DNA of 64,000 bases from Paenibacillus sp. FSL H8-0537 (GTDB lineage: Bacteria; Bacillota; Bacilli; Paenibacillales; Paenibacillaceae), in NCBI RefSeq assembly GCF_038051995.1, contig NZ_CP150290.1, forward strand, positions 5,260,001 through 5,324,000, written 5' to 3'. Each line of letters opens with the position of its first letter. The first letter of the stretch is position 1. The translations under genes and the position numbers were made by a program. This document shows positions 17,714-53,590 of this stretch, piece by piece. The notes under the pieces were generated by a model. The model searched no databases. It was not told where the DNA came from and worked only from the letters and a program-made list of their open reading frames with translations.

Positions 17714-17938
17714 ATGAAAAAATGTCCATTATGCGGCGGGCCAAACGGCTGCGCCATAGAAGCAGGGCTCGCGCCCCACTCCTGCTGGTGCTTCCGTGAG
17801 CGCGTTCCGCAAAGCCTGCTTGAACAAATACCGCCTGAACAGCGCAACCAGTCGTGCGTCTGCCAAAACTGCGTCAAACAAGGTGAAACGGCTGGCGCCA
17901 TCCATTGGCGGGGCAGCGCGTTTCAGTCCGAGAAATAG
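17714..17938 (+). CDS. Cysteine-rich CWC family protein, 3' end supplied by a repeat
   Basis: A 74-residue protein with the CWC family pattern: CPLCGGPNGCAIE at the N terminus, HSCWCF in the middle, then P-x3-L-x2-IP and CVCQNCV. Such proteins probably bind a metal through clustered cysteines; the role is unknown. The ATG at 17714 is chosen because it opens directly on the conserved domain; the in-frame TTG at 17684 adds ten unrelated residues. The conserved domain ends at CVCQNCVKQ. The last 18 codons and the stop lie inside the first unit of the 98-bp tandem repeat. The upstream Fur box implies expression in low iron. Confidence 0.82.
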   Translation: MKKCPLCGGPNGCAIEAGLAPHSCWCFRERVPQSLLEQIPPEQRNQSCVCQNCVKQGETAGAIHWRGSAFQSEK

Positions 17939-18178
17939 AGAGACAGGATGAAAACATCATATCCTTTCCTATATTTCAAGGTGAAACGGCTGACGCCGTC
18001 CATTGGCGGGGCAGCGCGTTTCAGTCCGAGAAATAGAGAGACAGGATGAAAACATCATATCCTTTCCTATATTTCAAGGTGAAACGGCTGGCGCCATCCT
18101 TTGACGGCGCGGCGCGTTTCATTCCGAGAAATATAGAGAAGAGATCGACACATCATATCCCTTTCCTATATTTCAAGC
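17879..18178. repeat. 98-bp tandem repeat, three copies
   Basis: Units start at 17879, 17977 and 18075 and are 98, 98 and 99 bp long. The first two differ at only two or three positions; the third is more diverged. Each unit holds two dyads: TGAAACG...CGTTTCA near its start, and GAAATA...AGGAT facing ATCCTTTCCTATATTTC in its second half. A related unit and a partial copy lie at 53428-53590. The array fills the space between the CWC gene and the convergent GGDEF-EAL gene. Confidence 0.9.
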
Positions 18179-26905: not shown

Positions 26906-27688
26906 CTACAGCACCGCTGCCTTGCCGCCGTCAATATTGACGGAAGTTCCCGTAACGAAGGAAGCCGCTTCCGAGACGAGAAAAGCGATGACATTCGCCG
27001 CTTCCTCCGGATTGCCGATGCGTCCAAGCGGTATATCATGCCTCGGGCTTGCCGCAAACTCCTCCCACGATAGATCGGAAGCGCTCTGTTTCCACATGCG
27101 CTCTATTTGATCGCTGCGAATAAGGCCGATGCAGACAGCATTCACACGAATGCCATCGCCAGCCAAATCCTTGCTCATCGCTTTCGTCAGCGCAAGACCA
27201 GCTGCACGGCTTACCGAAGTGGGCAGCGAGGAGCCTGCCGGCGTCTTGCCGCCGATAGCCGTTACATTTACGATGGCGCCTCCCCCCGCCTTACGGAGAT
27301 AGGGAAGCGCCGCACGCGTGAAATGAATGGCCGCATACAGCTTGAGGTCAAGATCGGCTGCCCACGCATCAGGCTCTACCTTATCGAATGGCAGCGCTGC
27401 TGACGTCCCTGCATTGTTTACGAGAATGTCGACACCGCCAAGCTGCTGGACCACCTCGGCAACAGCACGCTGTACCTCGGCCTCGACCGATACATCGGCG
27501 GAGATGATAAGCGGCCTTTTGCCTGTCGCCTGCTCAATCCGTTCTGCTGCTTCTTGCAGCGACCCCTCCTGTCTGGCAACGATCGCCACCTCCGCTCCCT
27601 CAGCCGCCAGCCGCAGCGCGGTGGCAAGTCCAATTCCCTTGCTTCCTCCCGTCACAATGGCACGTTTCCCTTGCATACCCAAATCCAT
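26906..27688 (-). CDS. SDR-family oxidoreductase with altered active site
   Basis: Short-chain dehydrogenase/reductase-like protein of 260 residues. The NAD(P)-binding TGGSKGIG motif and NNAG are intact. The catalytic YxxxK is not: where YSASKAA would be expected the protein reads TSVSRAAG, so Tyr is replaced and Lys is Arg. Related FabG-like subgroups with this change are known, and the chemistry may be altered or lost. IRVNAVCIGLIRS and the C-terminal GTSVNIDGGK are normal. It stands alone on the minus strand; the substrate is unknown. Confidence 0.9.
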   Translation of the reverse strand: MDLGMQGKRAIVTGGSKGIGLATALRLAAEGAEVAIVARQEGSLQEAAERIEQATGKRPLIISADVSVEAEVQRAVAEVVQQLGGVDILVNNAGTSAALPFDKVEPDAWAADLDLKLYAAIHFTRAALPYLRKAGGGAIVNVTAIGGKTPAGSSLPTSVSRAAGLALTKAMSKDLAGDGIRVNAVCIGLIRSDQIERMWKQSASDLSWEEFAASPRHDIPLGRIGNPEEAANVIAFLVSEAASFVTGTSVNIDGGKAAVL

Positions 27689-36572: not shown

Positions 36573-37568
36573 ATGAACGATCAGCTTAGAACCTTTTTAC
36601 AATTAGGTGATGCCGTTATTATTACGGATGACCAGCATCAAATATTAGAAATCAATTCGAGCTATGAAGCGATAACCGGCTACAGCCGCAGAGAAATATT
36701 AGGTAAAACGGCCGGTATTGTTCGCACCAGCCTTACTCCTGGGCATATTCATGAGAGCATGAAGGAAGCGTTAAAGGCAAAGCGGCCATGGTCTGGCGTA
36801 TTCATTAACCGCCGCAAGGATGGACAGCTGTGGCATTCCTCCATTACCATTACACCTTTATATATGGATGAGAGCTGGTATTATATCGGCATTTTCCGTG
36901 AATTGGAGCAGCTCCCTAGCGGCTTCTATATGCCTCAGGAACGAATTGGGCATATTCAAAGCTCGCTGCTCAAGGTGCTCGCCATTTCCTGTGAAATTCG
37001 CGATCCTGGCATTGAGTCGCATCTTGTGCGGGTGAGGGATCTTACGGAGGAGCTTGTGCGTTATCATAATGAGCGCATGCAGTTGGGATGGAAAGAAGAA
37101 CGGCTTAGCCGCATCGCCTCAGCGAGCATTTTGCATGATATCGGAAAATCAGGCATTCCCGAGGGGATTTTGTATAAGCCAGGTCCGCTCGCTGACTATG
37201 AACGCACCATTATTGAAATGCATACGTTTATTGGCGTCGACATTATTGAGAAGATTTTCAATGAGTTTAATGACGAGCTGTTTACTAGCGAGCTGACAGC
37301 GAGCAGGCATATTATTTTGCACCATCATGAACGGTGGGATGGCGAGGGCTATCCGCATAAGCTTGCTGGAGAAGCTATCCCCATTGAAGCGCGAATCGTA
37401 AGCATCGTTGATGTTTTCGACGCCCTTACCAGCAAACGCCCCTACAAGGAAAAATGGTCGGAGGTGCAGGCGCTCGCTTACATTAAAGAGATGCGCGGCA
37501 CCCAGTTTGACCCGGACTTAGTCGATTCATTTATTCAGCTTAATAAACAAAAAGAGGGATTGGCGTAA
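36573..37568 (+). CDS. PAS-HD-GYP phosphodiesterase
   Basis: Cytoplasmic protein of 331 residues that probably hydrolyses c-di-GMP. A PAS domain fills about residues 5-115 (ITDDQHQILEINSSYEAITGYS). The HD-GYP domain follows from about 125: HDIGKSGIPEGILYKPGPL, HTFIGVDII, HHHERWDGEGYPHKLAGEAIPIEARIVSIVDVFDALTSKRPYK. The metal-binding HD, HDxGK, HH and GYP signatures are all present, so it should be active. It lies 30 bp after the helicase gene on the same strand and ends inside a terminator hairpin. Confidence 0.93.
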   Translation: MNDQLRTFLQLGDAVIITDDQHQILEINSSYEAITGYSRREILGKTAGIVRTSLTPGHIHESMKEALKAKRPWSGVFINRRKDGQLWHSSITITPLYMDESWYYIGIFRELEQLPSGFYMPQERIGHIQSSLLKVLAISCEIRDPGIESHLVRVRDLTEELVRYHNERMQLGWKEERLSRIASASILHDIGKSGIPEGILYKPGPLADYERTIIEMHTFIGVDIIEKIFNEFNDELFTSELTASRHIILHHHERWDGEGYPHKLAGEAIPIEARIVSIVDVFDALTSKRPYKEKWSEVQALAYIKEMRGTQFDPDLVDSFIQLNKQKEGLA

Positions 37569-37584
37569 GTGCCAATCCCTCTTT
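37551..37584. terminator. Bidirectional terminator between HD-GYP gene and ferritin
   Basis: A 14-bp perfect stem, AAAGAGGGATTGGC with GCCAATCCCTCTTT, and a 6-base loop. It overlaps the stop codon of the HD-GYP gene and ends 6 bp before the ferritin stop codon, so it serves both convergent genes. Confidence 0.85.
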
Positions 37585-37589
37585 CTCAT

Positions 37590-38093
37590 TTATTCCGCAG
37601 GAGGCGTGAACGTACGCTGTGCAAATTCAGCATCCAGCATATAAAACGCGTTGCTGTCTTTATCAATGCGTTTCAGCTTCGAAATGATACCGTCGAACAA
37701 GGACTCCTCTTCTACCTGCTCATCGATGAACCATTTCAGGAAGTAGATCGTCGCGTGCTCGCGCTCGCTGAGCGCAAGGTCAGCAAGGTTGTAGAACTTG
37801 CGAGTGTTTTGCTGTTCATGCGCGTAAGCACGCTCGAACGCATCCAGCATCGATGCATATTCGTTCTTAGGCTCATGCAGAGCAGACAAGGTAGCACGAC
37901 GGTTGCGGTCGTTTAGGAATTTATATATTTTCATGCCATGGAAACGCTCTTCCTCAGCCTGGATAATAAAGAAATTCGCAAACCCGTCCAGACTTTCACC
38001 AGAACAGTAGGCTGCCATTGCAAGATACACATGCGCCGAATAAAATTCAAAGTTCATTTGTTCGTTTAAAGCTTCAGCTAATTGATCATTCAT
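37590..38093 (-). CDS. Ferritin (FtnA-type iron storage protein)
   Basis: A 167-residue iron-storage subunit that forms a 24-mer shell and oxidises Fe2+. The ferroxidase ligands are seen: E in NEQMNFEFYSAHVY near residue 17, and E and H in AEEERFHGMKIY near 47-53, with further acidic residues in HEQQNTRKFYNL and the E-rich DEQVEEESLF. The sequence resembles bacterial non-haem ferritin. Its gene is beside a DUF1450 gene with a Fur box, which suggests local grouping of iron genes, though ferritin itself has no clear Fur box. Confidence 0.93.
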   Translation of the reverse strand: MNDQLAEALNEQMNFEFYSAHVYLAMAAYCSGESLDGFANFFIIQAEEERFHGMKIYKFLNDRNRRATLSALHEPKNEYASMLDAFERAYAHEQQNTRKFYNLADLALSEREHATIYFLKWFIDEQVEEESLFDGIISKLKRIDKDSNAFYMLDAEFAQRTFTPPAE

Positions 38094-41710: not shown

Positions 41711-41927
41711 ATAGGTGTAGGTGAGATGGGATTCTGCGCTGCGCGAAAAGGTGGGGGTTACGATCGCCATTGCTGTTGAATTTCCTCGAATTAGCCGTGA
41801 ACGGCTGAAATTCCACAGCAAGGAGATTAGGCTTCGAAGCCGCTTTCTTCCAGAAAGCTCTGTTGAGCACTTCGTTTCTCCACCCCCACCTTTTCACTCC
41901 GCTACGACCCGCTCACCTATACAACCT
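41711..41927. repeat. Structured palindromic element, copy A
   Basis: A 217-bp intergenic palindrome. TAGGTGAG (41718-41725) pairs with CTCACCTA (41912-41919). Inside, AAAAGGTGGGGG (41746-41757) pairs perfectly with CCCCCACCTTTT (41883-41894). Within that lie a large hairpin (TTGCTGTTGAATTTC facing GAAATTCCACAGCAA around AGCCGTGAACGGCT), the palindrome GGCTTCGAAGCC, and GCTTTCT/AGAAAGC. Copy B at 46045-46217 has the same plan. Confidence 0.75.
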
Positions 41928-41961
41928 TAAAGCGTTTACCGATTTTTTTGGGGCAATAAAA

Positions 41962-42005
41962 CAAACCGTGGAGCTGGCTCATTTAATCGCCAGCTCCACG
42001 GTTTG
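41962..42005. terminator. Bidirectional terminator between HAD and sulfate-binding genes
   Basis: A 17-bp perfect stem, 41962-41978 with 41989-42005, and a 10-base loop, flanked by A- and T-rich DNA. The two genes are convergent and both may use it. Confidence 0.8.
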
Positions 42006-42073
42006 TTTGTTGTTACAACATTTATTACAATGTCTAATTACATGGTTACAAGCAACTGCACTTTTGACTGCAA

Positions 42074-46044: not shown

Positions 46045-46217
46045 GATTGCTGGAAATAGGGTCTGTGCTGCGTGAAAGGTTTGGCTTACGATCGCTGTTG
46101 CCCGCGGAATTCTTCGATTGTACCATGTTTATGGTAGAATTCCGCAGGCAAAGGCGAGCGCTCCGCTTCTCCAGCTCAAACCTTTCACTCCGCTCCGCCC
46201 CTCTTCCAGCTACAATT
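46045..46217. repeat. Structured palindromic element, copy B
   Basis: A 173-bp intergenic palindrome. GCTGGAA (46049-46055) pairs with TTCCAGC (46204-46210). GTGAAAGGTTTG (46072-46083) pairs perfectly with CAAACCTTTCAC (46177-46188). A long hairpin with GCGGAATTCT and AGAATTCCGC arms and an inner ACCAT/ATGGT stem fills the centre. It lies between the sulfate promoter region and the IMPACT gene terminator. Copy A is at 41711-41927. Confidence 0.75.
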
Positions 46218-53427: not shown

Positions 53428-53590
53428 CAAGGTGAAACGGCATTCGCCGTCCTCTGGTGGCGCGGCGCGTTTCATTCCGAGAAATATAGAGAAAGGATGA
53501 GAAAATCATATCCTTTCCTATTATTTCAAGGTGAAACGGCTTTCGCCGTCCTCTGGTGGCAAAGCTTCCGTTTTGCGATGAAATATAAGG
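53428..53590. repeat. Second copy of 98-bp-type repeat, upstream of tkt
   Basis: A complete 99-bp unit starts at 53428 and a partial second unit at 53527 degenerates after about 45-65 bp. The unit shares AAGGTGAAACGGC, CGCGTTTCA, CCGAGAAATATAGAGAA and TATCCTTTCCTAT with the array at 17879-18178. It begins 72 bp before the tkt start and may lie in its leader. Confidence 0.88.

Follow-up and report, generated by a model that had tools for sequence, protein, structure and literature searches.

The window analyzed here is a stretch of 64,000 nucleotides from Paenibacillus sp. FSL H8-0537 (NZ_CP150290.1, positions 5,260,001 to 5,324,000) that contains a sulfate-type ABC operon with an imperfect palindrome on either side. 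Copy A (41714–41930) has a HAD-hydrolase gene on one side and the 3' end of the operon on the other, and copy B (46045–46217) lies between the first permease gene of the operon and a UPF0029 gene. Each of these intervals includes an outer stem, and we place both elements on the - strand, which is the inferred folding strand, whereas the initial annotation had described copy B on the + strand. The structured core covers 138 model positions at 46061–46199 in copy B and takes a longer form at 41732–41908 in copy A, both again on -. The covariance model described below, R1, scores these cores at 140.5 and 100.3 bits, respectively, on the + (model) strand, but the two copies belong to its training set and the scores are not independent.

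The two copies share three sequence blocks. TGYGCTGCGYGAAA occurs exactly at 41735 in copy A and at 46064 in copy B, and TTACGATCGCYRTTG at 41758 and 46086. The third block, CCTTTYCACTCCGCT, is exact in copy A (41889), but copy B is one T short and can be aligned only with a 1-nt gap or, ungapped, with 2 mismatches. The closing stem of copy B, helix 2 of the structure, consists of GTGAAAGGTTTG (46072–46083) perfectly paired with CAAACCTTTCAC (46177–46188), and that of copy A is spelled differently, as AAAAGGTGGGGGT/ACCCCCACCTTTT (41746–41758 with 41882–41894). Apart from the missing T, the shared blocks and the perfectly paired but differently spelled stems are present where the initial annotation had put them. 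Inside its closing stem copy B has inner helices and an apical hairpin (46089–46160) that include a strongly conserved CG.TCGC/GCGA.CG helix, and copy A carries the extra two-hairpin module of the long form at 41822–41860; like the inverted repeats of the closing stems, these features are given without a strand.

In both copies the fold is far better than in dinucleotide shuffles of the same sequence. On the + strand the z-scores are -6.66 for copy B and -8.71 for copy A, with a fold as good in 0 of 200 shuffles in either case, and on the - strand they are -7.22 and -6.72. The folding energy of copy B is -78.9 kcal/mol on - versus -72.7 on +, following the strand preference of the family as a whole (see below). 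Copy A goes against this preference, with -93.4 kcal/mol on - and a slightly better -96.0 on +.

A search of the window with R1 returned copies A and B together with an antisense reading of B, followed by weak matches at E = 0.17 (antisense, inside A), E = 0.36 (37541–37595) and E = 1.3 (27107–27187). Rfam 15 gave no matches in the window at the gathering score. When five loci were searched against it at E ≤ 1, two matches were obtained, both at locus L089 and both below the gathering score: a group II intron fragment (E = 0.0004) that lies at the edge of the locus, outside the element, and a ylbH leader (E = 0.38) that overlaps the element in part and that we treat as chance.

Two other repeats were observed in the window. 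A 20-bp inverted repeat without mismatches, with a run of T at its end, adjoins copy A at 41959–42008, between convergent genes, and is perhaps a bidirectional terminator. An unrelated family of tandem 98–99-bp units (AAGGTGAAACGGC.. ..GAAATATAGAGA..) is found at 17884–18099 and 53433–53551, with three and two units, respectively, as counted by one conserved block. Sequence similar to this tandem repeat is present inside elements of another genome, G010 (L145–L147), and at loci L021 and L032 of the genome from which the window derives (hereafter the source genome).

Distribution and genomic context of the family

A BLAST search with copy B against the source genome gave 37 places at E ≤ 0.1, the best of them other than B itself at E = 9.1e-28. 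We oriented and aligned 23 of the source-genome copies, wrote a 42-pair structure for them, and built R1 from this alignment. With R1, ∼40 copies are identified, dispersed over the chromosome of this 7.0-Mb genome and occurring on either strand; by rough gene calls, 37 of 39 lie outside open reading frames of at least 120 codons. Antisense model matches (10 of 88 in relatives and 12 of 59 in the source genome) and duplicate rows (which reduced the source-genome set from 47 to 40) were dropped from the alignments. The core measures 135–181 nt in the 40 source-genome copies and 78 copies from relatives, and 124–147 nt in 97 of 98 copies from other species collected from named records; the remaining named copy is a partial match of 87 nt. 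Cores longer than 165 nt make up 9 of 40 source-genome copies, 5 of 78 relatives' copies and 0 of 98 named copies, the last set having been found with a pattern in which two blocks could be no more than 80 nt apart and which therefore excluded most long forms. On the folding strand, the family has the conserved stretch CUGGAGAAGCG. On C1 of the source genome three inverted pairs of copies (1682890/1683404, 5993579/5994318 and 509327/510039) have starts 0.5–0.75 kb apart. No clear common gene lies between the members of the three pairs, and we rejected the idea that they are composite units.

The family extends well beyond this genome. In a draw of relatives, R1 matches at E ≤ 0.01 in 25 of 40 genomes including the source genome, with matches in 20 of 24 others of the same genus and in 4 of 15 from elsewhere. 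At E ≤ 1e-5, it matches 233 of 296 genomes, representing 31 of 48 genera, in a draw from the order, and 27 of 299 in a draw from the class; these 27 are the source genome and 26 members of its family. A pattern scan of named records with the exact blocks CGATCGC, GCGAACGC and CGCTTCTCC gave at least 80 loci, of which 79 of 80 were confirmed by R1; conservation of these blocks in the named alignment is consequently a matter of construction. The one listed named locus without R1 confirmation (L289) is in a Kiritimatiellota record, and the genera among the named matches listed are Paenibacillus, Saccharibacillus, Gorillibacterium and Fontibacillus. The portions consulted of the literature on Paenibacillus repeats, MITEs and structured RNAs contain no description of the family, although it could be listed in the supplement of one survey (PMC11109978). 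The family is a MITE-like structured repeat, of a known kind and order-wide, that turned up neither in Rfam 15 nor in the literature searched.

The initial annotation had pointed out that both copies flank the sulfate transporter operon. The flanking position is real, and with B upstream of the operon and A downstream it would suit a cis-regulatory leader of sulfate transport, but the operon looks incidental given that ∼40 copies are dispersed over the chromosome beside varied genes. Ten neighbor proteins of other copies comprise two solute-binding proteins, an ABC ATPase, a transport permease, a chemotaxis receptor, RelA/SpoT, an HD phosphohydrolase, DnaJ and two proteins without a family; 4 of the ten are parts of ABC transporters. 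The copies have no consistent position before genes of one function, as a cis-regulatory RNA or riboswitch would. Moreover, R1 at E ≤ 1 finds nothing in the intervals at B of G016, G008, G001, G021 and G017, at A of G008, G001 and G017, or in the operon region of the sister genome G013, and three of the five relatives have a match to the stretch from B to the operon but none to B itself. Copy number, varied neighbors and absence in relatives thus rule against regulation of the sulfate operon, and we consider a leader of that operon highly improbable. The best reading is that the family is MITE-like with a structured core under selection.

The orientation of the copies relative to their neighbors is uneven. 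Among 112 copies (37 from the source genome and 75 named), all four arrangements of flanking genes occur (51, 24, 20 and 17), with both genes along the folding strand in 51 cases versus both against it in 24 (p = 0.002 jointly, 0.064 and 0.024 for the two sets apart), and 37 copies lie between convergent or divergent genes. These figures rest on rough gene calls and leave out 16 copies inside called open reading frames (14 named, 2 source-genome) and 9 named copies lacking a called neighbor on one side; an earlier count, in which orthologues shared by the source genome and G013 were still included, gave 33:14 of 71. On the folding strand, the 5' flank is T-rich and the 3' flank A-rich in the source-genome and relatives' copies, and these stretches are perhaps terminators of the neighboring genes. 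Free-standing small RNA genes would be consistent with the covariation and strand asymmetry described below. However, a count of 8-mers shared among the 220-nt flanks, a crude test by which promoters could be missed, yielded little besides inverted repeats and the T- or A-rich stretches, and we give a family of such genes very little credence.

Covariation and strand asymmetry in the core

The initial annotation had taken the compensatory change between copies A and B as a sign of selection for the fold. We compared the aligned genomic copies with shuffled alignments and with alignments in which the pairing partners had been slid. In the 23 source-genome copies, 92% of alignment cells are paired versus 81% when shuffled and at most 49% when slid, two-sided change is seen in 26 of 42 pairs, and 0 of 500 shuffles score as high on any of five measures. 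For the 98 named copies the corresponding values are 89% paired versus 67% shuffled and at most 47% slid, with a covariation score of 0.54 versus 0.16 shuffled and at most 0.12 slid, and two-sided changes in 934 cells versus 279 shuffled; 35 of 42 pairs show two-sided change, a number matched by 1 of 500 shuffles. At individual pairs, each of the four Watson–Crick types is well represented (for example, CG 29, GC 21, TA 17 and AT 16). The alignment was fitted to the structure, which leans the values towards it, and the copies are related, so that the cells are not independent. Covariation is strong and supports the fold in both sets, as expected of a structured RNA. Selection for the fold is borne out, and the outcome that would have spoken against it, numerous copies lacking covariation, was not observed.

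Some positions facing each other in the hairpin are consistently mismatched. Columns 11/179 have C opposite T in 22 of the 23 source-genome copies and T opposite T in the other (paired in 0 of 23), columns 33/147 have purine opposite purine in all 23 (paired in 0 of 23), and columns 9/181 have T opposite C in 22 of 23 (paired in 1 of 23). A palindrome upheld merely by self-copying would tend to lose such mismatches. This bears on the possibility that the family is a palindromic MITE at the DNA level, without any selected RNA, in which the compensatory changes arose when quasi-palindromes were corrected by template switching during replication, or when one copy converted another: correction of this sort is strand-symmetric and should erase mismatches, yet none of the 23 copies has a pair at columns 11/179 or 33/147.

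A second feature that bears on these ideas is the kind of mismatch present in the helices. A DNA process that is blind to strand should leave as many G·T as A·C mismatches. Over 36 helix pairs read on the strand of the initial annotation, A·C outnumbers G·U by 29:6 in an alignment made from sequence only, 86:27 in the relatives' copies, 53:10 in the source-genome copies and 121:33 in the named copies, a 3- to 5-fold excess in the main helices, where shuffled partners give mean ratios of 1.18–1.40 and maxima of 1.28–1.62. Counted by position, the ratios are 21:4 (source genome), 22:6 (relatives) and 23:4 (named), and counted by copy they are 27:1, 43:12 and 65:9. This strict count leaves out 6 of the 42 pairs (the two outermost, three at the junction and the last apical pair), a choice made after the per-pair counts of the source-genome and relatives' copies had been seen; the named set alone was counted after this choice had been made.

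The excess depends on the pairs counted, and this dependence favors an explanation at the DNA level. With all 42 pairs it vanishes (33:44 sequence-only, 100:135 relatives, 60:64 source genome, 148:162 named), and with the three junction pairs alone removed the counts are 33:19, 97:60, 60:26 and 144:87, respectively. The G·U surplus is located mainly in the junction pairs, whose register we had set; in the RNAalifold register the junction is mostly Watson–Crick, and the 36 pairs together with the re-registered junction give 33:15, 99:46, 60:21 and 141:48, an A·C excess of 2.2- to 2.9-fold. Folding energy, which involves no choice of pairs, also differs between the strands and is lower on the opposite strand in 36 of 40 source-genome, 66 of 78 relatives' and 85 of 98 named copies. 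The bias of main-helix mismatches in four alignments and the difference in folding energy both run counter to a purely DNA-level palindrome.

Read on the complementary strand, an A·C mismatch is G·U, C·T is G·A and A·A is U·U. Because the A·C pairs of the annotated strand are G·U pairs on the opposite strand, the latter is probably the folded one, whether as RNA or as single-stranded DNA; for copies A and B this is the - strand of the window. The case for selection on one folded strand is good, though not free of choices. G·T is better tolerated than A·C in DNA hairpins as well, and the asymmetry is compatible with RNA and single-stranded DNA alike. The folding strand might then act as single-stranded DNA, as a substrate for folded-strand recombination or single-strand transposition, and the persistent mismatches would accord with a protein that recognizes a DNA hairpin. 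The sole partner found for the family is, however, an IS630-type (DDE_3) transposase, and IS630-type transposases act on double-stranded ends. We regard a role as single-stranded DNA as quite unlikely and favor RNA as the form in which the strand folds.

Ends, mobility and comparison with known repeats

The cores are set in longer inverted repeats of more than one kind. One of four end types is present at both ends in 13 of 40 source-genome, 15 of 78 relatives' and 13 of 98 named copies, and none is recognized in one shuffle of each flank; in 27, 63 and 85 copies, respectively, no recognized type is found at both ends. The outer arms of copies A and B pair, yet match none of the four types. 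Of the source-genome copies with both ends recognized, six are IS630-type and seven are CTAGAAGCGTGGTGAA-like, and two further end types occur in other species. At L102 and L103 (G010), L203 (G022) and L247 (named), the core lies inside another inverted repeat that is AATCAGTGCTTGACC-like, the first three judged by eye.

Like MITEs, the family consists of short, numerous and dispersed copies, and an autonomous element with the same ends is present, for the IS630 type only, in the source genome and in G010. The source genome has three identical IS630-type transposase copies, and G010 has IS630-type transposases (DDE_3, with HTH_33 in another frame), whose ends are the same as those of some core copies. 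CTA..TAG bounds the three identical IS630 copies and, on both sides, some of the core copies (L112, for instance), and a target-site duplication of TA may be read from these element ends alone. At L140 of G010, a transposase and a core lie inside one outer pair of IS630-type ends, a unit that may be a nested insertion in which the transposase simply inserted into or beside the repeat. None of the five DDE_3 loci scanned in the source genome contains a core, and no partner transposase was found for the end type of most source-genome copies with recognized ends. The DDE_3 transposase is also absent from 9 of 10 other genomes searched, several of them rich in copies, and mobility in those genomes is therefore old or due to other enzymes.

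Recent amplification is apparent in G010. TATAAGTTGAACT with at most one mismatch occurs there at 105 forward and 100 reverse sites, compared with 14 and 7 for a reversed control. Among the 19 scored of 208 candidates and joined matches, at least 18 places besides the query are 90–96% identical over the element. At these places similarity starts at query positions 420–428, within 6 nt of the left repeat, and ends at 606–639, the repeats being at ∼427 and ∼620.

We compared four sites between genomes for polymorphic presence and target-site duplication. At the site of copy A in G013 the core is absent while both outer arms are kept, meeting close to a CGCT repeat with a difference of one base, a state consistent with hairpin deletion. 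At the site of copy B the left half is kept, followed by ∼1.7 kb of other DNA; this DNA (L139) is absent from the window and, by eye, contains an open frame. For L112 compared with the source genome and L056 compared with G013, the core is lost with remnants left or extra bases missing, and G207 holds the L056 copy as a full-length BLAST match. Presence thus differs between genomes, but none of the four sites (A, B, L112 and L056) is a clean empty site and we read the differences as losses. Terminal repeats, amplification, the core deletion at A and the losses at two other sites would all fit a palindromic MITE maintained at the DNA level, but in view of the kept mismatches and the strand differences we think this account unlikely.

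The best interpretation of these results, to which we assign a probability of roughly 0.6, is that copies A and B belong to a MITE-like repeat with a core whose folded strand is under selection and most likely acts as RNA. The family would be old and order-wide, with a conserved core of ∼140 nt (∼180 nt in the long form) predicted to fold into a single long, imperfect hairpin enclosed by longer inverted-repeat arms. Some of these arms are IS630-type terminal repeats, with an apparent target TA inside CTAG, and others are different sequences. The ends and the recent amplification of the family in one species suggest that copies bearing the ends of a transposase are moved by it in trans. The fold would be retained by selection on one strand, as suggested by covariation, kept mismatches and wobble asymmetry. 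That strand would most likely be RNA, with the copy co-transcribed as a leader, trailer or intercistronic sequence, and by stabilizing, cleaving or insulating the transcript the hairpin could conceivably render an insertion tolerable.

The initial annotation had offered a new structured noncoding RNA and a REP/MITE-like element as alternatives. The choice may not be forced, as both could apply. A MITE-like repeat is what we find, but the REP type finds no support: REP elements are palindromes of 20–40 bp in the part of the source consulted (PMC3733652), whereas the core here measures 124–181 nt apart from the single partial match of 87 nt. A more far-reaching version is possible but doubtful, namely that the core is an ancient functional RNA domain of the whole order, its fold itself selected because it serves the host transcript or lets insertions survive, and that it rides in MITEs whose two to four unrelated kinds of ends are interchangeable vehicles. 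Small structured repeats are often viewed as decaying transposon debris. The order-wide span of this family and a fold kept through many paired changes contrast with that view, and strand asymmetry in the main helices would separate selection on a folded strand from symmetric upkeep of a DNA palindrome. The family could be offered to Rfam and used in the annotation of Paenibacillus genomes.

Several known systems resemble the family by description, which is the only level at which we compare them. RUP is paired with an IS630 element. BOX and RUP of Streptococcus pneumoniae are interspersed and have a strong predicted RNA fold, BOX being modular, and mobilization by transposases through shared ends is proposed for repeats of this sort in the portion consulted of PMC3049150. 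The present family is alike in its interspersion, predicted fold and proposed mobilization in trans, but differs in its host, in a core that is combined with several kinds of ends, and in an acting strand deduced from mismatch asymmetry. In size and in insertion at TA, which is the apparent target here, ERIC and Correia also resemble the family. They are short palindromic repeats that act on mRNA via RNase E (ERIC) or RNase III (Correia), the effect of ERIC depending on its orientation, according to the sections consulted of PMC10969869 and PMC3049150. These repeats belong to other phyla, and the same sections mention neither covariation nor changing ends.

Another such system is bcr1 of the Bacillus cereus group, a 147–167 bp repeat described in the part consulted of PMC2267715 as having conserved structure and the characteristics of a mobile element. 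It is likewise a structured repeat of similar size in a Gram-positive host, but in that description it is specific to the B. cereus group. A survey of noncoding RNA in 50 genomes counts, in its consulted sections, 250 mobile or repeat candidates, including multi-copy motifs with conserved structure for which the DNA form may be the relevant one (PMC11109978). The MRSC-65-2 motif described there is unlike the present family in its UYCCGG repeat and its occurrence in diverse phyla; the family could be one of the other candidates. An RNA-seq study of P. riograndensis reports 27 small RNAs in the portion consulted. The count of A·C versus G·U that indicates a folded strand here is applicable to ERIC, BOX, bcr1 and Correia as well, and could help to tell which of them act as RNA.
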